From Caldifarciminota bacterium (GTDB taxonomy: Bacteria; Hydrothermota; UBA3072), in contig JAGLZA010000023.1 in the NCBI GenBank assembly GCA_023131835.1, positions 1 through 54,271 of the forward strand: 54,271 nt of DNA, given 5' to 3'. Shown here piece after piece: positions 3,569 to 27,603 of this stretch. A program made the position numbers and the translations under genes. Within the stretch, counting starts at the first letter, position 1. Every line of letters begins with the position of its first letter. The notes beneath the pieces are model-generated. The model saw nothing but the letters and a program-made list of their open reading frames with translations, ran no database searches and was not told the DNA's origin.

Positions 3569-4054
3569 TTAAGTTCCAAATTCTAATCGTCGGAATGTCC
3601 AACCTTTAACAGATTTGCATCCATATCTTTCACATAAACAGTTTGAAATATTACTATTATTCAATTTGTGTTGCCTCGCAAATTCATGTTGATTGTTTGA
3701 AATGATCTGCTTACCATTTGGGCCGAATGCCTGGAACCAGCGCTGCTTATGAGGGCCGCAAGATGCTGGACGAGTATTAGAATTTTGTTCATGACGTGTT
3801 GCCCAGCGAAAATTGTCAGGCTCGTAATCTCCGTCGTTATTAGGCCAACGGTCTATACTCATCCCTTCAGGTGGATCTCCCACATCAGCATAAAAGTTCT
3901 CAAATGAGTGCCAGCGTTTACAAACTTTGATTCCACGTCCACCATAGTTTTTAAAATTTTTGTCTTTAGGGTTTTCACATCTTTGGATTATGTGTTTCCA
4001 GCAACTATAAATTGGAGTTTTAGACATCCCGTGTGTTGGTGCATATTTTCCCAT
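3569..4054 (-). CDS. YGGRG-family HNH-like putative homing endonuclease, copy 1
   Basis: The start is placed at MGKYAPTHGMSK because its ATG overlaps the rusA stop (TAATG), giving translational coupling. Family pattern in order: HGMSKTPIYxxW; [13 protein letters not shown]; a D-R-W...DYEPDNFRWAT..EQ block matching the HNH core layout; a C-terminal helix-turn-helix-like NxxNISNCL...KGWTF. It probably cleaves DNA and copies itself into neighbouring phage genomes. The catalytic His expected after the Asp is Arg here. Confidence 0.65.
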   Translation of the reverse strand: MGKYAPTHGMSKTPIYSCWKHIIQRCENPKDKNFKNYGGRGIKVCKRWHSFENFYADVGDPPEGMSIDRWPNNDGDYEPDNFRWATRHEQNSNTRPASCGPHKQRWFQAFGPNGKQIISNNQHEFARQHKLNNSNISNCLCERYGCKSVKGWTFRRLEFGT

Positions 4055-4479
4055 TATTCGTTTTTCTCTGTCGTCCATATTTTGATTTCAGTTCTAGGCT
4101 TATCAGAATAAAGTTTTTTAGCTATACTTTCAACAATTTGACTATCATCTTTCCAGACAACATGATTTAAGCAATCATACACAAATTTTTCTAAATTATC
4201 CAAATCAGACTTTTTTGTATGAAGCGCCGGGGCATTTAATTTTAATTTGCCTGCATTTTTACCAGTCCCATAATGGCTTTTGGGCCGTGGCATATAAAAA
4301 ATGCAGCTAATTTTGATAGGTCCTTTGATCGGAGATCGTTTTATTTGTTGTTTTATTTCCCACAGGAAGCGTCCCTCTTCGGTCTCTTGATCATTGTAGG
4401 TTGTTACAAATTTACCTCGCCGAGCAAATCGTGGCCTTTTTTTTGCTATTGGATTACCTGGAATTATAAATTGTTGCAT
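4054..4479 (-). CDS. rusA: RusA-like Holliday junction resolvase
   Basis: A 141-residue protein with the RusA layout: IPGNPIAKKRPRF near the start (basic, DNA binding), the metal-binding SDLDNLEKFVYDCLN in the middle, and VVWKDDSQIVE near the end. RusA dimers cut four-way DNA junctions, resolving recombination or replication intermediates before packaging. It fits with the SMC-like, RecE-like and SSB genes in this phage. It couples directly to the nuclease gene downstream. Confidence 0.85.
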   Translation of the reverse strand: MQQFIIPGNPIAKKRPRFARRGKFVTTYNDQETEEGRFLWEIKQQIKRSPIKGPIKISCIFYMPRPKSHYGTGKNAGKLKLNAPALHTKKSDLDNLEKFVYDCLNHVVWKDDSQIVESIAKKLYSDKPRTEIKIWTTEKNE

Positions 4480-5394: not shown

Positions 5395-5731
5395 TGTTTT
5401 CTTGTGCCTCCTCTTGATTCACGGCGCTGCGCGGAGCGGCAGCGGATGGCGCCTCTCGAATATTATCGAAAAGCGGCAGTTGTTTAACCAGTATGGTTCC
5501 GTCCATAAAGGCGATAGTCCTGACCGGTGCGTCTGGTGGCTCAAGACCCACTATTTGATAGTCAACTGCGACGTAGGACTCAGCAGGCACCAAGCCAATT
5601 TTAATAGTTACTACTCGCTTAGATGTAACCTCCGGTCGGTTGGCGATATCCTTGCCTAGTTTTTGTAATGCTTTGTCGATTTTGGTAATAAAGTTTCCAT
5701 CGTCAAGAGTTACAATCTTAACTTGCTGCAT
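5387..5731 (-). CDS. Hypothetical early protein (114 aa)
   Basis: The start MQQVKIVTLDDGNF follows an AAGGAGG site that lies inside the 3' end of the upstream nuclease gene; the two genes overlap by 14 nt. It has no recognised domain, and a low-complexity C-terminus (APSAAAPRSAVNQEEAQENNG). It overlaps the DUF2303 gene downstream by 8 nt, so the pair are probably made together. Confidence 0.6.
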   Translation of the reverse strand: MQQVKIVTLDDGNFITKIDKALQKLGKDIANRPEVTSKRVVTIKIGLVPAESYVAVDYQIVGLEPPDAPVRTIAFMDGTILVKQLPLFDNIREAPSAAAPRSAVNQEEAQENNG

Positions 5732-6215
5732 TTATTGCCTCCTTTTGGTTTAATATTGGTTGAAATATCCAACCTTTGTGAGTTTTCAATCTATTGCAAA
5801 GACAACCTGAAATATGACCTTGATTAAGATTCCTTTTGCGAGCAAATGCTTTTTGATTATTATCTTCGTCCCACTCACCGGTATTGAGGTTGAATGCAAA
5901 AAACCAGCGTTGCTTGAGAGGGCCACAAGATGCGGGTCGGCTATTAAATTTTTGCTGGCTTGAAGTTGCCCATCTCCAATTCCCCTGTTCATAGTTTCCG
6001 TCATTGTTTGGCCAACGATCTAGGGTCATGCCTTTTGGTCGATCTCCGACATCAGCGTAGAAAAGGTGGATGTTATGCCAGCGGTTGCACACCTCAATAC
6101 CGCGACCACCATAATCTTTATAGCGAGGATGATTCGGATTTTCACATCTAGCCAACATGTTGCGCCAAATATTATAAATTGTAGTTCCTTCCATTCCGTG
6201 TTTGATTTTACTCAT
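5718..6215 (-). CDS. YGGRG-family HNH-like putative homing endonuclease, copy 2
   Basis: A 165-residue protein with the family order: HGMEGTTIYNIWRNM, DYGGRGIEVCNRW, LDRWPNNDGNYEQGNWRWAT, then QRWFFAFNLNTGEW and a helix-turn-helix-like HISGCL...KGWIF. Its C-terminus is extended by about 10 residues so that the frame runs over the ribosome site and start of the next gene. The insertion leaves both neighbours intact. Confidence 0.65.
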   Translation of the reverse strand: MSKIKHGMEGTTIYNIWRNMLARCENPNHPRYKDYGGRGIEVCNRWHNIHLFYADVGDRPKGMTLDRWPNNDGNYEQGNWRWATSSQQKFNSRPASCGPLKQRWFFAFNLNTGEWDEDNNQKAFARKRNLNQGHISGCLCNRLKTHKGWIFQPILNQKEAINAAS

Positions 6216-6257: not shown

Positions 6258-8129
6258 TTAGAGCCTCTTTATGTGTCCACTCTCAACCCAAAACATACGA
6301 ACTGGTGCATTTTTTGGTACGTTGGGAGGCCCCGGGGCGTTTGTGGCGGCTGCAGCGATGATTTGAACGCCCTCTTCAGCTATTTCCGTAAGCCAAACAC
6401 GGACACTGGCAGCATCTGAGGCGACCGATATGTTAAGCTCATCAAGTAATACCAAACCCACTCCCGTACAATGTGATATAGCCTCCGCAACTGCCATCCT
6501 TACACGTGAGGTTTCAGCACCTCCGAGTGTCCAAAGCTGTTTTTTATTTGTTTGTACAAGACTAAGATCATCCAAAAATTGAATTGAGACGCCCATCATT
6601 TCAGAATGTTTTTTCAATCGGGTATTCAAGGTCCCAAGCTTTTCTGCCACAAGCTCACCGGGAATGCCGTCAGGGGCAAGCAGCGTACATAATTTGTCAT
6701 AATGTTCGCGCTCTGCCTCTGCTTCATCAATCTTTGTCCGGGTTGCATCCAGGGTTTCTTGGGTTGCCTGATTCCAGATAATCGCTGATTGCGCGACCTT
6801 GAGATGCTCTACCTTTTCTTCAAGAGCTTCAATTGAAATTTCAAGAGCTTCTTTTTTCTCACCTGCTTCAGGCGCGGTATTTTCCAGCTTTTTCTCAAGC
6901 TCTTTGATGTCCCTTTCCAGTATTTCCATGTGAGCAAATCTGTCTTTGCACTCAGTAGCTTTTCCTGAAAGGTCGTCCCATGCTTTTTGTTCAGGGAAGT
7001 TTCTTTCTTCGACTGCCATGATTCTTGCTACTACTCCGTCAACCTCTTCTTGCTGTTGGGACCAGTCCGGTTCAATCGCTGGGCACATTGCATGGCCAGA
7101 TTCTTTGTATATCGGACATTTTAGATCGCTTACCCAGTTTTCTTTGTTCTTTGCCAAAAGATCTTCCGTGGTTTCGGCCAGATTTTCGAGAGTGGCAATA
7201 TCTTCTTTCATTTTGGTCTTGAACTCGTCCCTCGCCTTTTTTAGTTTGGTAGCCGTGGCGGTATCTGTTTTTGTCCATTTTACCTTTTTTGCAATAAGTT
7301 CAGCCTTCTCCGTCTGATATTTTGACAGTTGTTCCTCGGCTTCTTTTTTGTCTGCTTCTGACAGGGCCTTAATTCCTCCCAATTCCTTGTAAAGTTGTTT
7401 GAGCCTTGTCTGGTGCGCCCCTTCTTGTTTTTCGAGAGGTTTTTTCTTATGGGTTGCCATAATAGCATCCATGAGGATTTGCCTGTTTCCCATGGCAACT
7501 TGAGTAATCAATTTGGGCCTATCACCTTCCAGGATCTTGATTTTTTGTCCTGCTTCCCGGCGTAAACTATAAGCTGCGTTGTAGCCAGCATCCCATCCGA
7601 GATGATCAATTTCATTAATGATTTTTTCATTCCAAAATTCTTCACAAACGTTTGACGCATAACCTTTTTCGTGGAGAGTAATAAAAGCGTCTCTCAGGGT
7701 AGGTTTCAGGCCCAATGCCTTAATGATGAGCTTTTTCTGATATGCGGGATCAAGGTCAAAGTAATAATTGGCGTTAAGACATGCCGACAAGATATGCGGA
7801 TCAACGCCCAACTGAGCCCCAACCTGGACAGGGGAGGGCCCGGATCTATTTGTTTTGGCCAGCGTCCTTTTGATGTTAAAAGGGGAATCCCCTGCTTGCC
7901 CGGTGATGACCACTGAGGCGGTCTTACACTGGTCGTTGATCGCCTCGATGAAAGCTCCTTTGGGTTGGCCTTGGATGCTGTCTGTTAAGACATAAATTGT
8001 CGCGTCTAACATGGAAGACTTACCTTCTTCGTTATGACCTAAAAATAAATTAGCGCCAGGGGATAGTTCAATTTCAGCCTTTTTTATCCTTTTGAAACCC
8101 TTGATTGTTAATTCTTTAATGCGAATCAT
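6258..8129 (-). CDS. SMC/Rad50-like ATPase
   Basis: A 623-residue protein. Walker A is GHNEEGKSS (residues 31-39). Long coiled coils flank a CPIYKESGHAMCP segment near the middle that looks like a Rad50-type zinc hook. The C-terminal lobe has the signature-like LGGAETSRVRMAVAEAI and Walker B GLVLLDEL. It is shorter than cellular Rad50. Phage relatives work with a nuclease on DNA ends; no SbcD-like partner is visible here, so the RecE-like protein may be its partner (inference). Confidence 0.85.
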   Translation of the reverse strand: MIRIKELTIKGFKRIKKAEIELSPGANLFLGHNEEGKSSMLDATIYVLTDSIQGQPKGAFIEAINDQCKTASVVITGQAGDSPFNIKRTLAKTNRSGPSPVQVGAQLGVDPHILSACLNANYYFDLDPAYQKKLIIKALGLKPTLRDAFITLHEKGYASNVCEEFWNEKIINEIDHLGWDAGYNAAYSLRREAGQKIKILEGDRPKLITQVAMGNRQILMDAIMATHKKKPLEKQEGAHQTRLKQLYKELGGIKALSEADKKEAEEQLSKYQTEKAELIAKKVKWTKTDTATATKLKKARDEFKTKMKEDIATLENLAETTEDLLAKNKENWVSDLKCPIYKESGHAMCPAIEPDWSQQQEEVDGVVARIMAVEERNFPEQKAWDDLSGKATECKDRFAHMEILERDIKELEKKLENTAPEAGEKKEALEISIEALEEKVEHLKVAQSAIIWNQATQETLDATRTKIDEAEAEREHYDKLCTLLAPDGIPGELVAEKLGTLNTRLKKHSEMMGVSIQFLDDLSLVQTNKKQLWTLGGAETSRVRMAVAEAISHCTGVGLVLLDELNISVASDAASVRVWLTEIAEEGVQIIAAAATNAPGPPNVPKNAPVRMFWVESGHIKRL

Positions 8130-8614
8130 ATTATTTTCTCCTCAATTCGTGTGAACGTCCAGCCAAGATGAATTTTACGGCAACTTCGAAGACAACTAGA
8201 AATATGGCTATGATTCAATCCATGTTCTCTTGCAAATTCGTGCTGGTTATTGGAATAAAATATTTTGCCATTAGGGCTTATGGCCTGAAACCAGCGCTGT
8301 TTAACACGACCAGAGGAATTTGGACGACGGTTATTATTTTGTTCTTTCCATGTAGTCCATTGGCAATTTCCGGGTTCATAGTTTCCATTGTTGTTTTTAC
8401 GTTCTAGTGTCAAACCTTCTGGCTTGTCTCCCATATCTTCGTAAAAGTTTTCAAATGAGTGCCAGCGCTCACAAATAGAAATGCCTCGTCCGCCATAATT
8501 TTCATAGCTAATATTATTCGAATTCTGGCACCTGGCTTTCATTTGTTCCCAGCAACGATATTCCGGCGATCTTTTGCCATTTTTAGTATGGCCATGTGTT
8601 ATTGGTCCACTCAT
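8126..8614 (-). CDS. YGGRG-family HNH-like putative homing endonuclease, copy 3
   Basis: A 162-residue protein: HGHTKNGKRSPEYRCWEQM, NYGGRGISICERW, LERKNNNGNYEPGNCQWTTWKEQ, and QRWFQAISPNGK followed by HISSCL...LGWTF. Its stop overlaps the SMC start in an ATGA, and the GAGGAG ribosome site for the SMC gene lies within its last codons. It therefore replaces the natural leader of the SMC gene without breaking it. Confidence 0.65.
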   Translation of the reverse strand: MSGPITHGHTKNGKRSPEYRCWEQMKARCQNSNNISYENYGGRGISICERWHSFENFYEDMGDKPEGLTLERKNNNGNYEPGNCQWTTWKEQNNNRRPNSSGRVKQRWFQAISPNGKIFYSNNQHEFAREHGLNHSHISSCLRSCRKIHLGWTFTRIEEKII

Positions 8615-9817: not shown

Positions 9818-10279
9818 TTAAGTTGAAAAACTAAATTCCCAATTTTTGTGTATTTTTCTTCGTTTGTGTAAACAACTGGATATATGGCACGGATTAAGTT
9901 CATGCCTTTTTGCAAATTCACTTCGTTTGTTATCTTCATCCCATTCGCCTGTAACTAAATTGAAGGCGAAAAACCAACGTTGTTTACAGGGACCACAAGA
10001 TACTGGCCTGCGATTTTGTGCTTGTATTGCTGGTGTGTTCCATTCACAATTAGAAAGTTCATAATCTTTTCCATTGTTGATACGGTCTATGGTTTTTCCT
10101 TTTGGCCGTATGCCCATATCTTCGTAGAAGTTTTCAAACGTATGCCAGCGCTCACAAACTGAAATTCCTCGACCGCCATAGTATTTATAGCTTGGATCGT
10201 TAGGATTCTCGCAACGCTGAATCATGCCTTGCCAGGTTTTATATTCTCTTGTTTTGGACATTCCATGCTTTATATACAT
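9818..10279 (-). CDS. YGGRG-family HNH-like putative homing endonuclease, copy 4
   Basis: A 153-residue protein: HGMSKTREYKTWQGM, YYGGRGISVCERW, IDRINNGKDYELSNCEWNT, QRWFFAFNLVTGEW, HISSCL. The ribosome site AAGGAG can fold into a small hairpin AGGA-GAAA-TCCT directly before the ATG. It lies between the small 72-residue gene and the Gp3-like gene, both intact. Confidence 0.65.
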   Translation of the reverse strand: MYIKHGMSKTREYKTWQGMIQRCENPNDPSYKYYGGRGISVCERWHTFENFYEDMGIRPKGKTIDRINNGKDYELSNCEWNTPAIQAQNRRPVSCGPCKQRWFFAFNLVTGEWDEDNKRSEFAKRHELNPCHISSCLHKRRKIHKNWEFSFST

Positions 10280-10299: not shown

Positions 10300-10518
10300 T
10301 CATAATCCTCTATCCCTTTTATTGTTCAAAGTTCTTTTTACTTGATCCATTGCCCAATCAAGTCGGTCGGGATCCATACCATCGACGATTTTGCTAAGAG
10401 GCATGTCCAGGTTATCATATGAGTACATTCGCTTAAACACTAATTGCTCACTATCGGAGCATTGGGCCAAGCCTTCCTTTAGGGTATTTCTTGCATAGGT
10501 CTCTAGTTGATCATTCAT
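10300..10518 (-). CDS. Small hypothetical phage protein (72 aa)
   Basis: The start is MNDQLETYARNTL because its ATG overlaps the upstream nuclease stop (ATGA) and AAGGAG precedes it. It is a helical, charged protein with a conserved-looking core (QLVFKRMYS...IVDGMDPDRLDWAMDQVKRTL). Similar short proteins are common in phage early operons; function unknown. Confidence 0.6.
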   Translation of the reverse strand: MNDQLETYARNTLKEGLAQCSDSEQLVFKRMYSYDNLDMPLSKIVDGMDPDRLDWAMDQVKRTLNNKRDRGL

Positions 10519-11012
10519 CGGGTTTCTCCTTTTTGTTTTGGTATCCATTGGAATCGCCATCCTTTATGATAGGCACACTTACCGCAAAGGCAGGTTGAAA
10601 TACTCGTGCGGTTTAATTTAAATATTCTTGCTACATGACTTTGATTATTTTCGATAATCATTTCACCGCTTGGTCCATGACCGTAAAACCAGCGCTGGTT
10701 ACAAAGTCCGTAAGACTTGGGCCGACTATTAATGCGTTGTTCCTGGGTCGTTGCCCATCTCCAATTCGTAGGCTCATAATCTCCATTTTTGTCAGGCCAA
10801 CGGTCTAAACTCATACCTTCTGGTTTATTCCCTACGTCAGCATAGAAAGCCTCAAACGAATTACGCCAACGCTCACAAACCTTTATCCCTCGGTCACCAT
10901 AATTTTTAAAATTCGGAACATTTGGATTTTCGCAACGGTTAATCATATTGCACCAAATACCATAAATCGAAGTTCTACACATTCCGTGCGTTGTAATGCC
11001 CATATTAATCAC
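10515..11012 (-). CDS. YGGRG-family HNH-like putative homing endonuclease, copy 5
   Basis: A 165-residue protein. A GTG at 11012 has AGGAG 8 nt upstream and is the preferred start; an ATG three codons later is possible. Motifs: HGMCRTSIYGIWCNM, NYGDRGIKVCERW (Gly to Asp in YGGRG), LDRWPDKNGDYEPTNWRWAT, SISTCL...KGWRF. Its AGGAG lies in the closing stem of the element at 11019-11082. Confidence 0.65.
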   Translation of the reverse strand: MINMGITTHGMCRTSIYGIWCNMINRCENPNVPNFKNYGDRGIKVCERWRNSFEAFYADVGNKPEGMSLDRWPDKNGDYEPTNWRWATTQEQRINSRPKSYGLCNQRWFYGHGPSGEMIIENNQSHVARIFKLNRTSISTCLCGKCAYHKGWRFQWIPKQKGETR

Positions 11013-11158: not shown

Positions 11159-11968
11159 TTAATCATCCGCTCCAAGGATAACTATTTCATTCACATATCC
11201 CGGCCAAACGTTATTTTTTATACACTTAATATATTTTTCAAGATCAATGTCAATTTGTTGCCGTGCCGTTTCTATTATTTCATCAGAGAGCATATAAATC
11301 GCAGTTTCATAAGGACTGAAATTTTCCACAACTATAAAAATAAAAGCTTCCACACGTCTATTTACTCCAGCCGCTTGATACGCAGCATTTAATCCGCGTT
11401 CGTACCATGCTGCCTGCCTATCGTATCCCCAGCGACGGACTTCTCTCAAGAATCCTTGTGGACTGCCTGCCTGAGAACTTTTCAAATCAATCATAATATC
11501 ATCTGCTCGAAGATAATCAGGGCGCATCTTGCACACCAGGTGAGTCCCGGGGTCATCCCAAAAAATAGACATCTCGGGCGTTCCTCCGGCAAGCAAGTCT
11601 CTTGCCACAGAACAGGATGTATGCTCAAACGCTTGGCTCATGCCCTGGACGTTATCAAATTGTCGTGGTGTTAACGGTATGGCTTTCGGATTCGCTTTAT
11701 CCCACTTGATTCGACCAGCGGACCCCACGCGTGGAGCTGGGCCTTTGCCGAATTGATTTTCAAAAAGTTCTGGTTGTAGAATGGCACAATGGAGAGCACT
11801 TCCCTCAACTTGTGTTGGGGTCCCAGGCTTTTCATTGTCGCGCCAGTATGCAAATTTAGCAGGGGACTGGCTGAATATTTTGAGACCCGAATTATTTAAA
11901 GCTGAGTCCGCAAGATAGTCATGGAATGAAACATCTTGATAAAATCCTGGGATAAACACTTCAGGCAT
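11159..11968 (-). CDS. RecE/exonuclease VIII-like PD-(D/E)XK nuclease
   Basis: A 269-residue protein with the layout of the putative exodeoxyribonuclease VIII family. GSALHCAILQPELF near residue 56 is the conserved N-terminal helix. DDIMIDLKSSQAG supplies the D-x(n)-(D)LK catalytic core, and RRWGYDRQAAWYERG carries the following helix with its Gln and Tyr. It should degrade one strand of double-stranded DNA to allow phage recombination. No RecT-like annealing protein was recognised next to it. Confidence 0.8.
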   Translation of the reverse strand: MPEVFIPGFYQDVSFHDYLADSALNNSGLKIFSQSPAKFAYWRDNEKPGTPTQVEGSALHCAILQPELFENQFGKGPAPRVGSAGRIKWDKANPKAIPLTPRQFDNVQGMSQAFEHTSCSVARDLLAGGTPEMSIFWDDPGTHLVCKMRPDYLRADDIMIDLKSSQAGSPQGFLREVRRWGYDRQAAWYERGLNAAYQAAGVNRRVEAFIFIVVENFSPYETAIYMLSDEIIETARQQIDIDLEKYIKCIKNNVWPGYVNEIVILGADD

Positions 11969-12209
11969 TAGATAGCTCCATTTTCATTCGACCTTCTGTC
12001 AAATGGAAACTAATGGTGTCGTCTGGATGTGGGGATTCACGCTTTATGGTGACCAGTAAATCAGTTCCATGGTAGAAAGTAATAATAAATTCGTTGTTTT
12101 TTCTTTCTATTTGAAGGCCGGTGAAGATGATATGTGAATCGTGAATATATTTACTTGTGCTGGTCATTAAATTTGCTCTTGCTAGCTGAGATATTTCTAC
12201 GCTCTGCAT
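11961..12209 (-). CDS. Hypothetical first gene of leftward operon (82 aa)
   Basis: Starts MQSVEISQLARANL with a strong AAGGAGG 7 nt upstream, and overlaps the RecE-like gene by 8 nt. The middle (FIITFYHGTDLLVTIKRE) suggests beta strands; no domain is recognised. As the promoter-proximal gene of the operon it is expressed earliest. Confidence 0.6.
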   Translation of the reverse strand: MQSVEISQLARANLMTSTSKYIHDSHIIFTGLQIERKNNEFIITFYHGTDLLVTIKRESPHPDDTISFHLTEGRMKMELSNA

Positions 12210-12223
12210 CTGCTTTTTCCTCC

Positions 12224-12280
12224 TTGACTTTTGAGATAATGCAATATATTATTTATAATAATCCTTTATAAAAAAGTCAA
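12224..12280. promoter_or_regulatory. Overlapping divergent promoter switch
   Basis: Rightward: TTGACT (12224-12229), 17-nt spacer, TATTAT (12247-12252). Leftward: TTGACT (12280-12275), 17-nt spacer, TATAAA (12257-12252). The two -10 boxes share a base, and each -35 lies in the other's transcribed region, so polymerase can occupy only one at a time. TTGACTTTT and AAAAAGTCAA form an inverted repeat at the two edges that could bind a repressor such as the Cro/YdaS-like protein next door. Confidence 0.75.
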
Positions 12281-12307
12281 CAAAAATCTTAAAAAGGAAA
12301 ATCATTA

Positions 12308-12526
12308 ATGAAGCTTTCAAACTGGATTGAGAAACACTCAACGGAAGAGTTAAGAAAGCTGGCTAAGATGTGCGGCTGTGCCAGCAACTATCTATACCAG
12401 GTAGCAAATAATGGCTGTTCCGCAGGACTGGCCAAGAAAATCGAGAAATACACTACACAGATGAACCCTAAGCGGGCTGTACCTAAACATACCATACGGC
12501 CGGATATCTGGAAGAAGGGCGAATAG
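12308..12526 (+). CDS. Cro/YdaS-like DNA-binding regulator
   Basis: A 72-residue protein with a helix-turn-helix of the Cro/YdaS type: LRKLAKMCGCASNYLYQVA, then SAGLAKKIEKYT. Such proteins bind operators between divergent phage promoters. It is the first rightward gene from the 12.2 kb switch, 49 nt from its transcription start, and is well placed to control it. Confidence 0.75.
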   Translation: MKLSNWIEKHSTEELRKLAKMCGCASNYLYQVANNGCSAGLAKKIEKYTTQMNPKRAVPKHTIRPDIWKKGE

Positions 12527-13534: not shown

Positions 13535-14221
13535 ATGACTATAACCAAAATACCTAAATTATCGAAAAATTGCAAGGATATTACAGATCAGAGATTTGGA
13601 CGATTGGTAGCGATAAAACCAACTAATAAACGCTGCGGACGACACGTGATATGGCAATGTATTTGCGATTGTGGAAATGAATGTTTTGTGGCTTCACAAC
13701 GCCTACAAAACAAGCAAACCCAAAGTTGTGGATGTTTCAAAAAAGATCTTTTAACACAAAGGACTATAACACATAGAATGTCTAAAACTTTGATCTATAG
13801 TATTTGGAAAAGCATGATTCAGCGTTGTGAGAATCCAAAAGATCTTAGTTTTAAATGGTATGGTGGTCGAGGTATTTCTGTTTCAAAAGAATTTCATGAT
13901 TTTCAAACATGGTATGAGCACATAGGTCCTCGGCCTGGTCCTGAATATTCACAGGATAGAATTGAAAATGATGGCAATTATGAACGGGGGAATATTCGGT
14001 GGACCACTCAACAAAACCAGTGTGCTAACTCCAGACCGATTTCTTGCGGTCCTTTTAGACAGTTTTGGTTTCGAGCATGGCACAAAGATATGATGTGTCA
14101 GTTTATGAGTAATAGCCAAAGCAAATTTGCGAAAAAACATACATTACATGGGCCAAGTATTTCTGCTTGTCTCAATGGTAAGCAAAAAATTCATCGAGGC
14201 TGGATATTTTTAAAAATATAA
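13535..14221 (+). CDS. YGGRG-family putative homing endonuclease with N-terminal zinc domain, copy 6
   Basis: A 228-residue long-form member. Residues 1-75 carry TDQRFGRLVAIKP, a WQCICDCGNECFV cysteine cluster and SCGC, likely a zinc-binding DNA-recognition domain. Then come HRMSKTLIYSIWKSM, WYGGRGISVSKEF, a QDRIENDGNYERGNIRWTT core, and SISACL...RGWIF. It is encoded in the + direction and converges with the leftward operon at 14.25 kb. Confidence 0.65.
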   Translation: MTITKIPKLSKNCKDITDQRFGRLVAIKPTNKRCGRHVIWQCICDCGNECFVASQRLQNKQTQSCGCFKKDLLTQRTITHRMSKTLIYSIWKSMIQRCENPKDLSFKWYGGRGISVSKEFHDFQTWYEHIGPRPGPEYSQDRIENDGNYERGNIRWTTQQNQCANSRPISCGPFRQFWFRAWHKDMMCQFMSNSQSKFAKKHTLHGPSISACLNGKQKIHRGWIFLKI

Positions 14222-14524: not shown

Positions 14525-15190
14525 TTATATTCTTTGGAATTCCCAGCCTTTATGTTTTTTTCTCTTACCAAGAAGACAATCTGAAATATGCCCAGGAATT
14601 AGTTTCCACTTTTTTGCAAATATATGTTGATTTTTTGCTATTTCAATTTGATCATAAGGACCAAAAGCCAAAAATAATTTGAGTGCTTTAGTGTTATTGG
14701 CTTGTTCTATTTTTGTTGCCCATCGCCAATTCGCAGGTTCATAATCTCCATCATTATTAGGCCAACGATCTAGGCTTTTGCCTTTTGGCGGATCTCCGAC
14801 ATCCTCATAAAAATTCTCAAACGAGTGCCAACGCTCGCAGACCTTAATACCACGGCCTCCATAATATTTATAAGCTGTACTTTTTGGATTATTACAACGC
14901 TGGATCATCGCCTGCCAAATTTTATAAATTTTGGTTCTGGACATCCCATGTTTTGTTACAGCTTCTCTTACTGCATCCCGCTGTAAGCAACCACAACTTT
15001 GTACAGAACCATATCTCAAATCACCCGCTCTTTTAAAACACTCATTTCCACAATCACAAAGACAGCGCCAAACAATCCCCCCGCCATTGCTTCTTTTTTT
15101 AATTGGTTCTATAGCTATTAACCGCCCAAATTTTTGTCCAGTTAATTTCTTGGCCCAGGGGGGTAATTCTGATAGTATATTTTTAGTCAT
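14525..15190 (-). CDS. YGGRG-family putative homing endonuclease with N-terminal zinc domain, copy 7
   Basis: A 221-residue long form: LTGQKFGRLIAIEP, WRCLCDCGNECF and SQSCGC-type cysteines in the first 75 residues, then [48 protein letters not shown]. The stretch after NNTKA is shortened and the usual RPxSCG segment is missing. It ends HISDCL...KGWEF. It appears to have its own promoter and two leader hairpins. Confidence 0.65.
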   Translation of the reverse strand: MTKNILSELPPWAKKLTGQKFGRLIAIEPIKKRSNGGGIVWRCLCDCGNECFKRAGDLRYGSVQSCGCLQRDAVREAVTKHGMSRTKIYKIWQAMIQRCNNPKSTAYKYYGGRGIKVCERWHSFENFYEDVGDPPKGKSLDRWPNNDGDYEPANWRWATKIEQANNTKALKLFLAFGPYDQIEIAKNQHIFAKKWKLIPGHISDCLLGKRKKHKGWEFQRI

Positions 15191-16653: not shown

Positions 16654-17127
16654 TTAAATTCTCCTAAATCTCCATCCACGATAATGGTGTCGAGTGCCCC
16701 ACAAACAACGAGAGATAGCCGATTGCCTTAATCCCCACTTTCTTGCAAACTTACATTGACTATTACTTAAATATTGAGCCATGCTATCCTTATGCCAAAC
16801 TCGAAACCAATGCTGCTTAACGCGGCCAGAAGAATTTGGCCGTCTATTGTTTTGTTGTTTTTCCCAGGTGGCATATTCGCAATTTTCAGGTTCATAATTG
16901 CCATTATTATCCATGCGTTCCAATGTCATACCGTCAGGTTTTGGCCCCATATCTTCATAGAAATTTTTAAAACTATTCCATCTCTCACAAACAGTAATAC
17001 CTCGGCCACCATAATATTCATAGGACGGGTGTTTTGGATAATTACAGCGTCTTTGCATATTGACCCAAACACGATATGTCGGTGTATTTGACATACCGTG
17101 TTTTTCGTTTTGTCGTTTTGGCTTCAC
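16654..17127 (-). CDS. YGGRG-family HNH-like putative homing endonuclease, copy 8
   Basis: A 157-residue member starting at GTG without a clear ribosome site: HGMSNTPTYRVWVNM, YYGGRGITVCERW, LERMDNNGNYEPENCEYAT, then QHWFRVWHKDS and AISRCL...RGWRF. It lies between two intact small genes, 13 nt after the stop of the gene upstream, so translation may depend on that gene. Confidence 0.6.
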   Translation of the reverse strand: MKPKRQNEKHGMSNTPTYRVWVNMQRRCNYPKHPSYEYYGGRGITVCERWNSFKNFYEDMGPKPDGMTLERMDNNGNYEPENCEYATWEKQQNNRRPNSSGRVKQHWFRVWHKDSMAQYLSNSQCKFARKWGLRQSAISRCLWGTRHHYRGWRFRRI

Positions 17128-17339: not shown

Positions 17340-17558
17340 TTAGAACGCACTTCTTCTAATAATTAGACACAGACCAAGGAACAAGAGTGTAGAAATAACT
17401 GCAACTTGGGCCACTAAGTTAAAAATATTTTCGCTCCCGGGGGCAAAAAAGCAGATTCCTAAGGCAAAACCAATAAATAACCCGCCGAACAATGAGGATT
17501 CTCTTTTTGTTTTAGCGATTTTGTTTAGGAATTTAGTTATCAGGGTTTCGATGGTCAT
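17340..17558 (-). CDS. Two-segment membrane protein (72 aa)
   Basis: A basic N-terminus is followed by two membrane segments (GLFIGFALGICFFA and VAVISTLLFLGLCLII) and a short basic end. It has an AAGGAG ribosome site and is the first gene of the leftward operon. It could alter the host membrane early in infection; no family recognised. Confidence 0.55.
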   Translation of the reverse strand: MTIETLITKFLNKIAKTKRESSLFGGLFIGFALGICFFAPGSENIFNLVAQVAVISTLLFLGLCLIIRRSAF

Positions 17559-17598
17559 GGTTTATTCTCCTTGGTGTATTATTTTCAGACTTATTCTG

Positions 17599-17658
17599 AA
17601 TATAATGGGGGTTTGTCAAAATGTCAAGACTTGACAAATGTTTTTTTGACATTATTTT
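17599..17658. promoter_or_regulatory. Divergent promoters with a shared palindromic operator
   Basis: Leftward: TTGACA (17627-17622), 17-nt spacer, TATATT (17604-17599). Rightward: TTGACA (17631-17636), 16-nt spacer, TATTTT (17653-17658). The two -35 boxes form a perfect 15-bp dyad TGTCAAG-A-CTTGACA (17622-17636), and more TTGTCAA/TTGACA half-sites flank it at 17613 and 17646. A protein bound here would shut both promoters. Confidence 0.75.
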
Positions 17659-17678
17659 CCGGTAAGGGAGAACTGATT

Positions 17679-18215
17679 ATGCAAATAAATAATTTTATTG
17701 AACAAAACACAAAAAGAAAATTTATACAATTCAAAAAAAAGAAGGCTAGATATATTTATTTTATTTGTGAGGATGATGGTGAAATAATTTATATAGGAGC
17801 GACTAGTTATCTAGTTAGTAGAATAGCAAAACATGGTGTTTTCGGAGAATGTGGACGTTTTGCGAGAAAAAAAGTTTTTTATTTTATTGTTGAACATAAT
17901 GAAATGGCTTGTGATATAGAACGAATTTTTATCCAAACAATACGACCTAAACATAATGTACATGATAATCGTAGGGGGAAAATTAAGAAAAAAAAGGTTA
18001 AGAAAAAAAAGATAAAAATTCGCGTTACAAATAGTAAATGGGTAACGAAAGAAATAATTTATCTTTGTGGTGGTAGCCGCAAGCAGGCAGCTAAAGAAAT
18101 AGGTATATCTTTGAGTTATTTTTATAGAATAGAAAGAAAGTTGGAACCAAGTATCCGCCTTTATCAAAAACTCATACAAAAATTAAGTAAATTAATTACC
18201 TTAAATTTAAATTGA
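17679..18215 (+). CDS. GIY-YIG nuclease fused to a helix-turn-helix
   Basis: The start is MQINNFIEQNTK because AAGGGAG precedes it. Residues ~23-90 form a GIY-YIG nuclease: RYIYFICEDDGEIIYIGAT, an Arg and His after it, then the catalytic-type Glu in DIERIFIQTIRPKHN. A Lys-rich linker leads to a C-terminal HTH (GGSRKQAAKEIGISLSYFY). The gene is far more AT-rich than its neighbours, suggesting recent transfer. It sits directly behind the palindromic operator and may regulate itself. Confidence 0.7.
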   Translation: MQINNFIEQNTKRKFIQFKKKKARYIYFICEDDGEIIYIGATSYLVSRIAKHGVFGECGRFARKKVFYFIVEHNEMACDIERIFIQTIRPKHNVHDNRRGKIKKKKVKKKKIKIRVTNSKWVTKEIIYLCGGSRKQAAKEIGISLSYFYRIERKLEPSIRLYQKLIQKLSKLITLNLN

Positions 18216-18287
18216 CAAATTTTTAAAATCAGGATAAGAAAAACTATGTTGATAATCTATGATCTATTCCAATCAATAAAATAAATT

Positions 18288-18371
18288 TTACTCCTGGGAC
18301 GCCGGTTATCCGGCACAACCCCCACCTCCTGGTCGTGATTGTCAACAGTCTCGGGAGTAATTTCTTTTTTT
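18288..18371 (+). terminator. Large-loop stem with T-run before the primase gene
   Basis: TTACTCCTGGGAC and GTCTCGGGAGTAA form a 13-bp stem with two G-U pairs, closing a 47-nt loop that begins with GCCGG-TTAT-CCGGC and continues with a C-rich segment. TTTCTTTTTTT follows. It can terminate transcripts from the GIY-YIG gene or attenuate the primase gene. Confidence 0.65.
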
Positions 18372-18388
18372 GAAGATTAGGAAATCTT

Positions 18389-20140
18389 TTGCGCAATCTT
18401 TTTGAACGAATTTTTCAAGAACGAGAAGGACGAAGACAAGCTGACGGATCGTTTATGTGTCTTTGCCCAAGTCATGACGATCACGATCCATCATTACACG
18501 TTTCTTTAATCAACGATAAGATTCTTGTTCATTGTAAAGTTGGTTGTTCACAAAAGGACATAGTTACAGCTTTAAGAACTTTAAATCTTTGGACGTCCCT
18601 TGAGTCCCATATCGAACCAAAACTCCGTAGAACGAATCCTGCGCAAAGCACGGCCACAAAAAAACCTCTCCCAACAATTCCTCCCGGAATTTTCAAAACC
18701 AGAAAAGAGAAGACCTTATCTAATTTCTGGACCTATAAGGACCAGGCCGGCAAGGTCCTGGGTCACGTGGCCAGATATGACGGCAATGGTAAAAAAGAGA
18801 TAATTCCCTATTTTAATTACAAAAATAGTCAGTGGTCCCCGGGGGCGCCGCAGACCCCCAGACCTCTCTACGGTCTCAATCATATTACCCGGGCATCCAA
18901 GGACCTCACCATCTGGATAGTCGAGGGCGAGAAGTGTGCGGAGGCCTTACAGTCTCTTCCTCCAGGGGTCCGCAGGCTTGCCACTACATCGATGGGCGGG
19001 ACCAATGCAGCCAGGCTTACAGACTGGTCTCCGCTGGCTGGTCGCAATGTAAGGATCTGGCCGGACTATGATAAGGCCGGCAAGGTATATGCTGAAAATG
19101 TCAAGCTACAGCTTGAAGGTCTCATGCCTCCACCAACTATTGAAATGGTGAATGTGCCCAAGCTGGGCTTAAAAGAAAAAGAGGACGTGTTTGACTGGCT
19201 GCAGACACATAAGCCGGATGAACTGGACAAGATACCGATAGAGAACAAAAAAGGGTTAAAGAAAACCTGCATTAAGGGCTTACTGGAAACAGATTTTAAA
19301 CCGGAAGAGCTTATTCTTTCTCCATGGTTACCGACACAAGGGCTGGGTATGATTCATGCTCGGCCAGGCGTCGGCAAAACATTCCTGGCCATCGGAATCG
19401 CATTTGCAGTTGCAGCAGGCGGCAAGTTCTTAAAATGGGAAGCACCGCAAGCAAGGAGCGTACTTTATATCGACGGTGAAATGGCGGGGGACGATATCAA
19501 GAAACGATATGAGAAAATAGTCGTTGAACATGGTTTTGCCCTTCCAAGCAAGTCCCTGGAAATTATCACCCCTGATATTAACGAAGACATACTTCCTGAT
19601 ATTGGAACAAAGTCAGGCCAGAAAATAGTTGAGGGCCAGATAACTGACGAATGCGAATTGATAATCTTAGACAACTTATCTTGTCTGCAGCGTACAGGTA
19701 TCGAAAATGACGCAAGCGGCTGGACCGTGATGCAGGAATGGCTATTACATCTTAAATCTATGGGCAAGGCTGTGCTTCTAATCCATCATTCAGGAAAAGG
19801 TTTTGCTCAGAGAGGGACCAGTAAGCGAGAGGATTTTCTTAATACGATTTTGACTCTGAAACGTAATCCTTTATATGAATTCGAAGAAGGCGCTTGCTTT
19901 GAAGTGCATTATGAAAAAGCTCGGAGTGTTTATGGACCAGCAGCCAGACCATTTGAAGCCAAACTTGATATTGGTGAAGGTGTTTGGACAATAAGAGACT
20001 TGAAAATGGTAACTTATGACCAGGTAGTTAAAATGATGAGGGAAGATTACAAGCAGATCGAAATTGCTCAATCGTTAGGGAAAAGTAGGGCAGCGATTTC
20101 ACAGCATGTAAAAAGGGCGAAAGAAAAAGGGGATTTATAA
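18389..20140 (+). CDS. Primase-helicase (CHC2 zinc finger, TOPRIM, RepA-like ATPase)
   Basis: A 583-residue protein starting at TTG after AGGA. The N-terminal zinc finger is CPSH...C...C (C26, H29, C49, C53). A TOPRIM domain holds VEGEKCAEAL and the acidic WPDYDKAG. A RepA/DnaB-like ATPase has Walker A RPGVGKT near residue 330, Walker B ELIILDNLS and IHHSGKG. A short C-terminal HTH (QIEIAQSLGKSRAAISQHV) ends it. It should prime and unwind phage DNA; the origin lies directly downstream. Confidence 0.85.
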   Translation: MRNLFERIFQEREGRRQADGSFMCLCPSHDDHDPSLHVSLINDKILVHCKVGCSQKDIVTALRTLNLWTSLESHIEPKLRRTNPAQSTATKKPLPTIPPGIFKTRKEKTLSNFWTYKDQAGKVLGHVARYDGNGKKEIIPYFNYKNSQWSPGAPQTPRPLYGLNHITRASKDLTIWIVEGEKCAEALQSLPPGVRRLATTSMGGTNAARLTDWSPLAGRNVRIWPDYDKAGKVYAENVKLQLEGLMPPPTIEMVNVPKLGLKEKEDVFDWLQTHKPDELDKIPIENKKGLKKTCIKGLLETDFKPEELILSPWLPTQGLGMIHARPGVGKTFLAIGIAFAVAAGGKFLKWEAPQARSVLYIDGEMAGDDIKKRYEKIVVEHGFALPSKSLEIITPDINEDILPDIGTKSGQKIVEGQITDECELIILDNLSCLQRTGIENDASGWTVMQEWLLHLKSMGKAVLLIHHSGKGFAQRGTSKREDFLNTILTLKRNPLYEFEEGACFEVHYEKARSVYGPAARPFEAKLDIGEGVWTIRDLKMVTYDQVVKMMREDYKQIEIAQSLGKSRAAISQHVKRAKEKGDL

Positions 20141-20142
20141 TT

Positions 20143-20391
20143 ATGGGCAGAAACTGTGAAAGATATGGAAGTTATTATTTTTGTGTGAAAACTGATTTGT
20201 CGGAAGATGGAGATATCTATCTTTTTGCTGATGATGCCATAGTGGAAAATGGGGACCTGATTTTTATAAATTCAGAGGGGAACACAAATATGTGTTTTGC
20301 TCGTGATTCCTGGAAAGCTTTTTATGCAGCGTGTTGTATTGATGGTGGACCTGTAGCCGTGGAACATTGGAAAGGGGAAGTTCCTGAATGA
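20143..20391 (+). CDS. Hypothetical protein (82 aa)
   Basis: Reads MGRNCERYGSYYFCVKTDLS, acidic in the middle (SEDGDIYLFADDAIVENGDL). It begins 3 nt after the primase-helicase stop, so the two are probably co-translated. No family recognised. Confidence 0.5.
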   Translation: MGRNCERYGSYYFCVKTDLSEDGDIYLFADDAIVENGDLIFINSEGNTNMCFARDSWKAFYAACCIDGGPVAVEHWKGEVPE

Positions 20392-20468
20392 GAGCTTTAG
20401 AAAAAGGAGATTTGTGAGATGAAGGAATTGAAAGGCAAGAAATGAGATTGAAAATCTATAATAAAATA

Positions 20469-20728
20469 TTTGCCTCGCGCGTATACTTTTTTTGAACTTA
20501 ACATTTATATATATGTATGTGATATTATTATTATTATTTGTTAAGTTGGGTACTTAACATTAACTTAACATTCTAAACATTTGGAGGAAAACTTAACATG
20601 TTAACTTTTGGCTTCATATACCCCAATGTTAAGTGTTTGTTAACCCCCCACTTAACATTTTAGACTGGTTATCCATGCGGATTTTGGTAATTTTGTTAAG
20701 TAAACTAAACATATACGCGCGAGGCAAA
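20469..20728. other. Probable replication origin: iterons within a 17-bp inverted repeat
   Basis: TTTGCCTCGCGCGTATA (20469-20485) and its exact reverse complement (20712-20728) bound 226 bp of AT-rich DNA. Inside are about eight copies of ACTTAACATT in both orientations (near 20495, 20540, 20552, 20562, 20590, 20625, 20650, 20694) plus weaker ones, and one DnaA-box-like TTATCCATG at 20669. No gene is present between 20392 and 20759. Iterons, AT-rich DNA and position after the primase-helicase all fit an origin. Confidence 0.75.
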
Positions 20729-21179: not shown

Positions 21180-21632
21180 ATGAGTTACAACCTCAGAAAT
21201 TATAAGCACGGCAGACATAGCACTAAAGAATATCATGTTTGGAGTGATATGATTCAGCGTTGTTATAATCCAAGGGAGCCAGCTTATAAAAACTATGGTG
21301 GCCGTGGTATCAAGGTTTGTAAGCGTTGGCGCAAATTTGAAAATTTTTACGAGGATATGGGTGATTGTCCTGAAGGATTAACTCTTGAGCGTATTGACAA
21401 TGATGGGGACTATAAGCCTGATAACTGTAAATGGGCTACATGGGAAGAACAGGCTAATAATAGACGATGCCAGCGTTGTTTTTTAGCTTATAATTTTTTA
21501 ACTGGTGAATTGAGCAAAAACAGTAATCAACAAATATTTGCAAAACGTCATAAACTTTCTAGTAGTCGTGTTTCATATTGTTTGCGCAAAGGGAAAAAAT
21601 ATAAAAGTTGGTTTTTTCAATACTTGCCTTAA
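21180..21632 (+). CDS. YGGRG-family HNH-like putative homing endonuclease, copy 9
   Basis: A 150-residue member: [54 protein letters not shown]. The RPxSCG segment is shortened to RRCQRCF. It ends RVSYCL...KSWFF. The ribosome site is GTGGTGA directly after the T-run of the upstream hairpin. Confidence 0.65.
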
Positions 21633-22278: not shown

Positions 22279-22350
22279 AACGCACCTATGCCGGAGAGAT
22301 CCGGGTTTCTTCCTTTTGGATAGATTCATAGCACATGGGTGCGTTTTTTT
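22279..22350 (+). terminator. Large-loop stem with T-run after ssb
   Basis: AACGCACCTATG and CATGGGTGCGTT form a 12-bp stem (one G-U) around a 43-nt loop that opens with CCGG-AGAGAT-CCGG and a T/C-rich segment. Seven Ts, then CGTGGTGAA and the ATG of nuclease copy 10. It shares outer-stem core, inner hairpin, T-run and GTGGTGAA with the element at 21094. Confidence 0.7.
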
Positions 22351-22360
22351 CGTGGTGAAT

Positions 22361-23032
22361 ATGATGCATCATAGCGCTATTGATCTAACCGGACAGCGAT
22401 TTAATCGGTTGACTGTGATTGAGCCAACCGAAAAAAGAAGTAGTAAATGTGTTGTATGGCGATGTTTGTGTGATTGTGGTAACGAAGCTTTTGTAAATTC
22501 CAACAATCTAAAATCAGGTGGAGTTAAAAGTTGTGGATGTTTATCCCGGGAAACTAAAACAACGCATGGTATGTCCGGGACAAGGGAATACTGGACTTAT
22601 CGTTGTATGATTGACCGTTGTTATAATCCAAAAGCTCCAAATTACAAAGATTATGGAGATAGAGGTATAAAAGTTTGTGATCGTTGGAGAAATTCATTTG
22701 AAGCCTTTTATGAAGATATGGGACCACGACCAAAAGGCATGACTATAGATCGTATAGATAGCTATGGAAATTATAAGCTAAGTAATTGCCAGTGGGCCAC
22801 TGGGCATGAGCAACGGATGAATTGTAGGCCAAGGTCTTGTGGTCCAAATCGTCAGCGTTGGTTTATGGCTTTCAGTTTGAATACAGGTGAGTGGTTTGAA
22901 GATGACAATCAACAGAAATTTGCAAAACAACACAGGCTTCAATGCTCAAGTATATCGCGTTGTTTACACAAGAAACTAAAAACTACAGGAAATTGGATAT
23001 TTGAGTTTTTACCTTATCAGGATAATAAATGA
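22361..23032 (+). CDS. YGGRG-family putative homing endonuclease with N-terminal zinc domain, copy 10
   Basis: The start MMHHSAIDLTGQRFNRL follows GTGGTGA; the longer upstream frame runs through the terminator and is not real. Long form: WRCLCDCGNEAFV and SCGC in the first 70 residues, HGMSGTREYWTYRCM, DYGDRGIKVCDRW, IDRIDSYGNYKLSNCQWAT, SISRCL. Its stop overlaps the helicase start (ATGA), so helicase translation is coupled to it. Confidence 0.65.
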   Translation: MMHHSAIDLTGQRFNRLTVIEPTEKRSSKCVVWRCLCDCGNEAFVNSNNLKSGGVKSCGCLSRETKTTHGMSGTREYWTYRCMIDRCYNPKAPNYKDYGDRGIKVCDRWRNSFEAFYEDMGPRPKGMTIDRIDSYGNYKLSNCQWATGHEQRMNCRPRSCGPNRQRWFMAFSLNTGEWFEDDNQQKFAKQHRLQCSSISRCLHKKLKTTGNWIFEFLPYQDNK

Positions 23033-24348: not shown

Positions 24349-24827
24349 AAACGCATAAAATGAGTTAAACATTAATTTATTTGATTTGGAAAAGTATGCT
24401 TGCACGATGTAGAAATCCAAAAAACAAGGATTATAAGTGGTATGGTGGACGTGGCATTTCAGTTTGTGAACGTTGGCATTCATTCGAGAATTTTTATGCT
24501 GATGTAGGAGATCCACACGAAGGAATGACTTTGGATAGATGGCCGGATAACGATGGTGACTACGGACCTGATAATTGGCGGTGGGCAACTTCCCATCAAC
24601 AAGCAAATAATCGTAGATCCAGATCTTGTGGCCCTACAAAACAATGCTGGTTTTTCGCTTTTAATTTAGATACCGGAGAATGGTTTGAGGAGAATAACCA
24701 GCGGGCTTTTGCAAGAAAACATGGGCTTTGTCAAGCGAATATTTCAGCTTGTTTGCTTAAAACACAGAAAATCCACAAGGATTGGACATTTGAGTTTTTA
24801 CCATATCAAAGAGATGGGGTGGATTGA
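24345..24827 (+). pseudogene. YGGRG-family nuclease, copy 11, broken by a stop codon
   Basis: The ATG at 24345 overlaps the helicase stop (ATGA). The frame reads MKTHKMS, then TAA (24366-24368), then TLIYLIWKSMLARCRNPK. Copy 6 has MSKTLIYSIWKSM at this place, so one AAA to TAA change at the Lys codon explains it. The rest is intact: WYGGRGISVCERW, LDRWPDNDGDYGPDNWRWAT, NISACL. Restart at a TTG (24381) could still give a protein lacking the N-terminus. Confidence 0.7.
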
Positions 24828-25637: not shown

Positions 25638-26135
25638 ATGTCCAAAACCACCAAATACAAGGAAGATTATCTGCGAATAGCTGAGGTCGTCTGCGAAGAG
25701 GGCGGGCTTTCTTTGCGTCAATTAGGTAAGGCCCTGGGTGTTTGTGCTGCGACTATAATTAAGTGGAAGAAAAAGTACCCTGAGTTCGGAGATGCTGTAG
25801 ACCGGGGCTGCCAGGCTTATGACAAGTCAACTGCTAAAGATTCTCTTCAAAAGCGCCTAGAGGGCTATTTTTACAATGAGACCACCTCTACCTTGGTAAC
25901 AAATCCAGTAACAGGTACTACCAAAATGCAGATAAGTAGAATCGTTAAGAAGCACATGCCTGCCGACGTTCATGCCTTGACTCTTTTCTTGCTTAATAGA
26001 GATTCCGAAAACTGGAAATATCGTCAAGTCGTGGACATTAATGTACTGCAAAAACTTTCCGATAAAGAAATTGATAAGCGCATTTCCTTAATTGTGGATA
26101 ACACCAAAAAGAGGAAGAAACGTGCAACGGGCTGA
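25638..26135 (+). CDS. terS: Terminase small subunit
   Basis: A 165-residue protein with an N-terminal HTH (LSLRQLGKALGVCAATIIKW KKK region), a central helical part, and a basic C-terminus (NTKKRKKRATG). This is the usual layout of TerS, which recognises the packaging site. It lies directly upstream of and overlaps the TerL gene. Confidence 0.75.
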   Translation: MSKTTKYKEDYLRIAEVVCEEGGLSLRQLGKALGVCAATIIKWKKKYPEFGDAVDRGCQAYDKSTAKDSLQKRLEGYFYNETTSTLVTNPVTGTTKMQISRIVKKHMPADVHALTLFLLNRDSENWKYRQVVDINVLQKLSDKEIDKRISLIVDNTKKRKKRATG

Positions 26136-27603
26136 CAGCACAGCTTTAGACCTGGATTACGGCCAGTACTCCCGCGTCCAAAAAGAGAACCTTTTGGCAC
26201 TTTTCCAAGAGAAGGAGCGGCGTGTTAATTCAAGACAAATTCTGTCACTGTATCCCGACCGTGGACCGTTAAGGCGTGAGCTATATGTCCCGCACTGCAA
26301 ATTCTTTAAAGCCGGTGCGAAACATAAAGAGCGCTGCATGATGGCCGCGAACAGAATTGGGAAAACCTATGGCGTCGGCGGTTATGAATTAACCTTACAT
26401 CTTACGGGTCAATATCCGCCGTGGTGGGAAGGTAGAAAATTCGATAGGCCGGTGAGGACTTGGGCGTGTGGAACAACAGGTCAAACAGTTCGAGACATTA
26501 TCCAGCGTAAGCTTCTTGGGCCGATAAACGACCTGGGAACAGGCTTAATCCCTGGTGAATACATAGTCGAGACCAAAAAAAAGGCCGGCAACGTACCGGA
26601 TACAATAGAAACCGTCTATGTGAAACACATAACCGGTGGAATCTCAACGATGGGCCTCAAGTCTTATGAGCAAGGACGTAAAGCATTTGAGGGTGATGAA
26701 CAAGATGTTGTTCTCCTCGACGAAGAGCCTCCAATCGGTATCTACACTGAGTGTCTAACGAGAACTATGACCACTCAGGGAATCGTGATGCTTCTTTTTA
26801 CTCCCCTGCAGGGCCTGTCTGACACCGTTCTCCTTTTTATGCCTGGTGGCCAGATACCGGCAGAGACGGGTAGACGTTTTGTGGTCCAAGCTACATGGGA
26901 TGACGCTCCGCACCTCACGGAACAAGACAAGCAAGATATTATTGACTCTTACCTTCCTCACGAACGTGATGCCAGGTCAAAAGGTATTCCCCAGCTTGGA
27001 TCTGGACGAATTTATCCAATTCCCGAAGAGGACCTACTTGTTGATGATTTTGCAGTTCCTAAACATTGGATTCAGGCATATGGGTTTGATGTCGGTTGGA
27101 AAGCGACGGCGGCAACGTGGGGAGCGCTAAACCGTGAATCCGATGTGCTTTATCTTCATTCGTGTTACAAGAAGGGAGAAGAAAAGCCAATAATACATGC
27201 TGAGGCTGTTAAAGCTCACGGGGAATGGGTACCGGGGTTATCCGATCCGGCGGCTCTTGGAAGAGGCCAAAAAGACGGAACACAGCTCATGCTTGAATAT
27301 AATGACCTGGGCCTTAAATTGGTTCCGGCTGAAAATCCTGTTGAGGCCGGAATCTTGAAACTCTACAAGCGGATGACCACGGGACGGCTTAAAGTATTTA
27401 AGTCAATGGTTCAGTGGCTTGAAGAGTTCAGAATATATCGGAGAGACGACAAGGGTAGAGTAGTCAAGGACTTTGATCATCTTATGGATACAACCCGGTA
27501 TCTCAATAATTCGATAGTGTCTGTGGGGATAGTTCGACCAGAAAGCAAGGAGATTCATATTCCTGGTTCAAGTAGTAGCTTGACTTCGGGGTGGGCAAGA
27601 TAA
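26122..27603 (+). CDS. terL: Terminase large subunit
   Basis: The start is a GTG at 26122 (GAGGAAGAAAC before it); the longer frame lies within terS. A 493-residue packaging motor: ATPase Walker A-like AANRIGKT near residue 76-82, PPWWEGRKFDRPVRTWACG typical of the podovirus/Bcep22-like TerL group, Walker B VVLLDEEPP near residue 200, and an RNase H-like nuclease half starting YGFDVGWKATAATW with a late Asp-rich DFDHLMD. Confidence 0.9.
   Translation: MQRADSTALDLDYGQYSRVQKENLLALFQEKERRVNSRQILSLYPDRGPLRRELYVPHCKFFKAGAKHKERCMMAANRIGKTYGVGGYELTLHLTGQYPPWWEGRKFDRPVRTWACGTTGQTVRDIIQRKLLGPINDLGTGLIPGEYIVETKKKAGNVPDTIETVYVKHITGGISTMGLKSYEQGRKAFEGDEQDVVLLDEEPPIGIYTECLTRTMTTQGIVMLLFTPLQGLSDTVLLFMPGGQIPAETGRRFVVQATWDDAPHLTEQDKQDIIDSYLPHERDARSKGIPQLGSGRIYPIPEEDLLVDDFAVPKHWIQAYGFDVGWKATAATWGALNRESDVLYLHSCYKKGEEKPIIHAEAVKAHGEWVPGLSDPAALGRGQKDGTQLMLEYNDLGLKLVPAENPVEAGILKLYKRMTTGRLKVFKSMVQWLEEFRIYRRDDKGRVVKDFDHLMDTTRYLNNSIVSVGIVRPESKEIHIPGSSSSLTSGWAR

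Follow-up and report, generated by a model that had tools for sequence, protein, structure and literature searches.

A probable homing-type GIY-YIG endonuclease gene between shared divergent promoters of a phage from a Caldifarciminota assembly

The first rightward gene in the divergent control region of this phage is probably a free-standing homing-type endonuclease gene similar to the T4 Seg and I-TevI genes, and it appears to be transcribed from its own promoter. The window (the whole stretch of DNA that was analyzed, 54,271 nt) is one contig of a metagenome-type assembly of 537 contigs. A terminal repeat was sought on this contig and not found. Thus, the contig may not cover the whole phage, and further genes, another repressor included, may lie beyond its ends. 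The control region contains the following features.

17584..17600, no strand: second dyad TTCAGACTTATTCTGAA beside the leftward -10 box; near-identical TTAAGACTTATTCTGAA in the related phage (L007/L121; L121 5684-5700)
17599..17627, minus strand: leftward promoter, TTGACA-17-TATATT
17614..17651, no strand: cluster of four TTGACA/TGTCAA hexamers (17614-17619, 17622-17627, 17631-17636, 17646-17651)
17622..17636, no strand: perfect 15-bp dyad TGTCAAGACTTGACA, built from both divergent -35 boxes
17631..17658, plus strand: rightward promoter of the GIY-YIG gene, TTGACA-16-TATTTT (promoter scan)
17664..17671, plus strand: ribosome-binding site, AAGGGAG region before ATG 17679 (direct sequence reading)
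17679..18215, plus strand: GIY-YIG endonuclease gene, 178 aa (GIY-YIG domain 25-90, Lys-rich linker ~98-115, putative helix-turn-helix [HTH] 131-169)
18212..18248, plus strand: older rightward promoter, TTGACA-17-TAAGAAAAACTATG (TTGACA-17-TAAGAA...ACTATG), common to the window and L007
18291..18360, plus strand: structured leader RNA followed by a terminator-like U-run; counterpart at L007 2426-2487

The GIY-YIG gene and its product

The preliminary description saw in the first rightward gene an AT-rich GIY-YIG gene with a C-terminal HTH, and this was borne out, the HTH as a weakly scoring match. The catalytic domain matches PF01541 above the Pfam cut-off (E=2.9e-6; 27.9 bits, cut-off 22.6), and the C-terminal part matches HTH_3 below its cut-off (E=0.0013; 19.1 bits, cut-off 23). 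The GC content of the ORF is 27.2%, compared to 43.1% for the window, and is the window minimum for stretches that long. A longer reading from TTG 17571 (214 aa) was dismissed, since this ORF would cross the promoters and ATG 17679 has a ribosome-binding site.

When searched against PHROGs, the protein was assigned to phrog_16880, annotated as "endonuclease" (E=5.5e-8). It was aligned with five annotated phrog_16880 phage proteins and one bacterial protein. Residues Y27, Y38, G40, R48, H52, E81, and N93 are all present and are invariant across the seven members. All invariant columns of the alignment (9/9) are filled in the protein, indicating that the nuclease looks intact. A profile of the seven-member family matches structures of UvrC, T4 endonuclease II, Eco29kI, and I-TevI. 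The protein is strongly basic (pI ~10.2). A single-sequence structure prediction (mean pLDDT 44) was confident for the C-terminal helices only. Pfam detected HTH families only and no NUMOD-type domain in the C-terminal part; "unorthodox" GIY-YIG homing endonucleases without NUMODs have also been described (PMC1564403). Searches of IMG/VR, GTDB contigs, plasmids, annotated phages, and 147 genomes from the phylum revealed no close relatives; since the pattern-based scans among them detect close relatives only, distant relatives may exist.

Comparison with a related phage

A related phage, IMGVR_UViG_3300033141_003149, was found by a TerL search (TerL 83% identical); its parts are referred to here as L007, L085, and L121. 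On either side of the control region, it is collinear with the window. The left block, with 83% DNA identity, reaches window position 17604. Homology breaks at 17605 and resumes at 20701. The leftward promoter is kept in register in L007 (TTGACT-17-TATTTT), and the older rightward promoter matches L007 2346-2382 with a score that was equalled in 0/3000 shuffles. The distance between these two -35 boxes is 39 nt in L007 and 584 nt in the window. The GIY-YIG gene, the TGTCAAGACTTGACA dyad, and the TTGACA cluster are all absent from the L007 control region, and no counterpart of the GIY-YIG gene's own promoter was found when it was sought in L007. Since L007 has both promoters without the GIY-YIG gene, this gene lies between two shared promoters. 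It is thus an extra intergenic gene, with flanks conserved in one related genome that is without it.

The GIY-YIG gene ends with a stop codon (TGA, 18213-18215) that is part of the older rightward promoter's -35 box. A target-site duplication was also considered, and the occurrence of TTGACAAAT at both ends (17631 and 18212) is within chance (P about 0.03-0.2). With one related genome compared, the low GC content argues for a gain of the gene here; in this single comparison, the gene may instead have been lost in L007.

The leader RNA downstream of the older rightward promoter has a 10-bp stem, in which three pairs are altered on both sides between the window phage and L007. Its fold z-scores are -4.7 (window) and -4.3 (L007), and a search of Rfam returned no family. 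This RNA might act in attenuation or antitermination. A model of the leader based on a MAFFT alignment was set aside because its main stem was one base out of register. Beyond the leader, the window carries a primase-helicase gene, and L007 carries an unrelated phrog_945-type endonuclease gene and replication-initiator/loader-like genes. The replication modules between the collinear arms thus differ (window 17605-20700, L007 2280-4500). The GIY-YIG gene marks one edge of a swapped replication module. The first leftward gene (17340-17558, minus strand), which encodes 72 aa with a membrane-spanning look, has no L007 counterpart, indicating a gene gain or loss on the leftward side as well.

The early regions of the phage contain about eleven dispersed HNH endonuclease genes, which form one family (phrog_374/3377/2081). 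Seven were confirmed by PHROGs, and the others were recognized by a weak NUMOD-like match or a common GGRGI motif.

3569-4078, 5718-6215, 8126-8614, 9818-10279, 10515-11012, 14525-15190, 16654-17127, minus strand: HNH endonuclease genes
13535-14221, 21180-21632, 22316-23032, 24381-24827, plus strand: HNH endonuclease genes

Several of them show a weak C-terminal match of the I-HmuI/NUMOD type. In this company, the C-terminal HTH of the GIY-YIG protein is most simply a targeting domain, which is the role of the C-terminal HTH in such nucleases. Copies related to these HNH genes are also present in L121. The large terminase ORF of L007 (10001-12472, 823 aa) appears to hold an intein with an overlapping HNH-like ORF (11692-12306), which is absent from the window terminase (26092-27603, 503 aa).

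Dyads and the TTGACA cluster at the divergent promoters

In the promoter scan, the leftward promoter (-35 at 17627-17622, 17-bp spacer, -10 ending at 17599) has 11/12 consensus matches, and the GIY-YIG promoter (-35 at 17631-17636, 16-bp spacer, -10 ending at 17658) has 10/12. Their -35 boxes form a perfect dyad with further half-sites, exactly as had been described from the sequence. The outer hexamers, TGTCAA at 17614-17619 and TTGACA at 17646-17651, are placed asymmetrically relative to the TGTCAAGACTTGACA dyad. Neither is part of a good promoter, and neither has a fitting -10 box.

The dyad by itself is not rare and is ordinary for the window, in which four perfect 7-1-7 dyads were observed and 4.5 were found in shuffles. 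Such a dyad occurs within the 120-bp intergenic region in 1.2% of shuffles. The clustering of TTGACA hexamers, four within 38 bp, is non-random: four hexamers in the intergenic region were obtained in 0/20,000 region shuffles, and four inside 45 bp in 0/300 window shuffles. The TGTCAAGACTTGACA string was not found elsewhere when it was searched for in viral contigs.

It is a serious possibility that the dyad is not an operator and consists of back-to-back consensus -35 boxes, the extra TTGACA motifs being remnants of promoters or alternative promoter elements. With a distance of 3 bp, two TTGACA boxes already set 12 of the 14 paired positions, so that most of the palindrome follows from the way the promoters are arranged, and the number of 7-1-7 dyads in the window is as expected by chance. 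In addition, 16-mers resembling the left half of the cluster at the ends of host-assembly repeats can also be read as tandem TTGACA. However, the outer two hexamers do not have -10 boxes that would make them promoters, and at least two hexamers were found in the intergenic region in just 0.7% of shuffles.

A repeat whose ends resemble TTGTCAAAATGTCAAGCACCGACCC is abundant in the host assembly, and some copies lie around transposase-like genes; repeat-bearing contigs are C256, C139, C497, and C527 of assembly G000 (L116, L104, L100, and L098, respectively). The 16-mer TTGTCAAAATGTCAAG, which is identical to the left half of the phage cluster, recurs at the ends of the host repeat/transposase-like elements. 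A link between the cluster and these repeats was dropped, since the E value of the 16-mer is only 0.4 and the match may be due to chance. One-mismatch dyads in the host assembly (TGTCAAGACCTGACA) were assigned to another repeat family.

The preliminary description further proposed that a homing-type nuclease may have been recruited as the repressor of the operon or may target the operator. The homing-type nuclease is supported; against recruitment as a repressor, L007 uses the same promoters without gene, dyad, or cluster. The protein also does not belong to the phage repressor/Cro family: it is mainly a nuclease, and L007 has neither the gene nor the dyad. A dual nuclease-repressor is rather unlikely. 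Its HTH would bind the cluster at 17614-17651 and shut off its own promoter and the leftward operon, and its nuclease would cut elsewhere. There is a precedent in I-TevI, a GIY-YIG enzyme with a C-terminal HTH and a proven autorepressor; its operator lies over the I-TevI promoter and is bound but poorly cut (PMC2988022). Four hexamers in so short a stretch are far above chance, the outer two are left unexplained by the promoters, and the phage without the GIY-YIG gene is also without cluster and dyad. In contrast, the -35 boxes alone account for half of the sites and for the dyad, and the outer half-sites are not symmetric about it. Moreover, the gene is present in just one genome; the related phage lacks it, yet its leftward and older rightward promoters work; and nucleases of this kind find their targets with a C-terminal HTH. 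The similarity between the cluster region and the empty site in L007 is no better than chance (P 0.16-0.36). We consider it unlikely that a homing nuclease inserted in a master divergent promoter region represses both operons by HTH binding to the cluster.

There is little probability that another regulator, either the Cro-like protein or a host protein, binds the cluster and that the nuclease gene merely adjoins it. The region is a divergent switch between leftward and rightward operons, where phages usually put operators, and the Cro-like protein (gene 12308-12526) is assigned to the repressor family phrog_35 (E=1.9e-5). However, binding of the dyad by this protein, which the preliminary description had named as a counter-result, is not supported. 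The related phage has a counterpart of the Cro-like gene (64% identity in L121) without the dyad and the cluster. Furthermore, the gene's own divergent overlapping promoters in both phages (window ~12210-12307; L121 ~820-890) carry a different dyad, ATTATTTATAATAAT, with one copy in the window and two of an overlapping type in L121. The two Cro-like proteins have different residues in the recognition helix, and their specificity may therefore have changed. The dyad conserved in the control region is TTCAGACTTATTCTGAA, not TGTCAAGACTTGACA; from its sequence conservation, TTCAGACTTATTCTGAA is likely the better candidate for the older operator of the phage.

Homing, known systems, and implications

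The claim that the protein is a homing-type nuclease was strengthened by the intact GIY-YIG residues, the HTH-type C terminus, and the foreign composition, as well as by its absence from a syntenic phage, its location at the edge of a swapped module, and the many HNH endonucleases of the phage. A free-standing homing endonuclease gene would fit this whole set of features: the gene is additional, its composition is foreign, its nuclease looks intact, its flanks are conserved, and it lies at a module border. It is very unlikely that the protein is instead an early nuclease against host or rival DNA: although the gene comes first in the rightward operon, which points to early expression, and the family profile also matches T4 endonuclease II, the putative C-terminal HTH fits targeting, and homing agrees better with the composition, the insertion between two conserved promoters, and the many HNH endonucleases.

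According to the homing model, the gene would have inserted into the central divergent control region, with the leftward early promoter on one side and the older rightward one on the other. The -35 box of its own promoter would thereby have come to abut the leftward -35 box, giving rise to the dyad. Since the stop codon overlaps the older -35 box, sloppy deletion of the gene would harm replication-gene expression. We infer that the nuclease would target and cleave the equivalent control region of co-infecting phages without the gene (L007-type alleles), and that it would home by repair from the carrier genome, which would spread the gene together with its flanks. Such a spread fits the location at the edge of the swapped replication module.

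Free-standing GIY-YIG genes in phage intergenic regions, in which promoters of the downstream genes are embedded, have been described (PMC2988022). Among them, the T4 seg endonuclease genes (SegA-SegG) resemble the present gene in that they are free-standing, intergenic, and oriented as the downstream genes, whose promoter overlaps the gene end (PMC2988022). Unlike the seg genes, the gene described here is located between divergent early promoters, has its own sigma-70-type promoter, and has a predicted activity and target; closeness in sequence is limited to the catalytic domain. I-TevI, the T4 intron-encoded endonuclease and autorepressor, has the same order of an N-terminal GIY-YIG domain, a linker, and a C-terminal DNA-binding part ending in an HTH (putative in the present protein), and in both cases the operator or candidate operator is promoter-proximal. 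However, no intron was seen here, a zinc finger was not identified in the GIY-YIG protein, and the candidate site is a hexamer cluster, not a near-copy of a known homing site.

The phrog_16880 endonucleases, such as gp59 of Mycobacterium phage Yoshi and Orf7 of Nocardia phage NBR1, belong to the same catalytic family and share the invariant residues. The members examined differ in that a Pfam scan detected no C-terminal HTH in them, and their identity to the GIY-YIG protein is just 19-27%. Yoshi gp59 is comparable in its location: in this unrelated phage, the immunity region has a small HTH gene that is immediately followed by the gene of the same PHROG (gp58-gp59, L140 1196-1896). Nuclease genes may repeatedly land in phage switches.

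Nuclease genes have also been found at boundaries of exchange, where they are interchangeable between families (PMC10448857). The arrangement here is similar to these "HEG islands" (PMC10448857): the GIY-YIG gene separates a conserved arm from a swapped replication module, and L007 has another endonuclease close to this border. Two genomes were compared here; the far border is at ~20700, and an HNH gene lies at 21180.

If the insertion reading is true, the two phages would clearly show the main early switch of a phage before and after the arrival of a nuclease gene, the promoters on both sides having been kept. It would also add a case of a nuclease gene marking the border of a swapped replication module. 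If repression via the TTGACA cluster were true, the control of phage genes would be tied to a selfish element. The insertion reading, if true, also opens a question to direct testing: does a free-standing homing nuclease, like the intron-encoded I-TevI, regulate the promoter beside its landing site?
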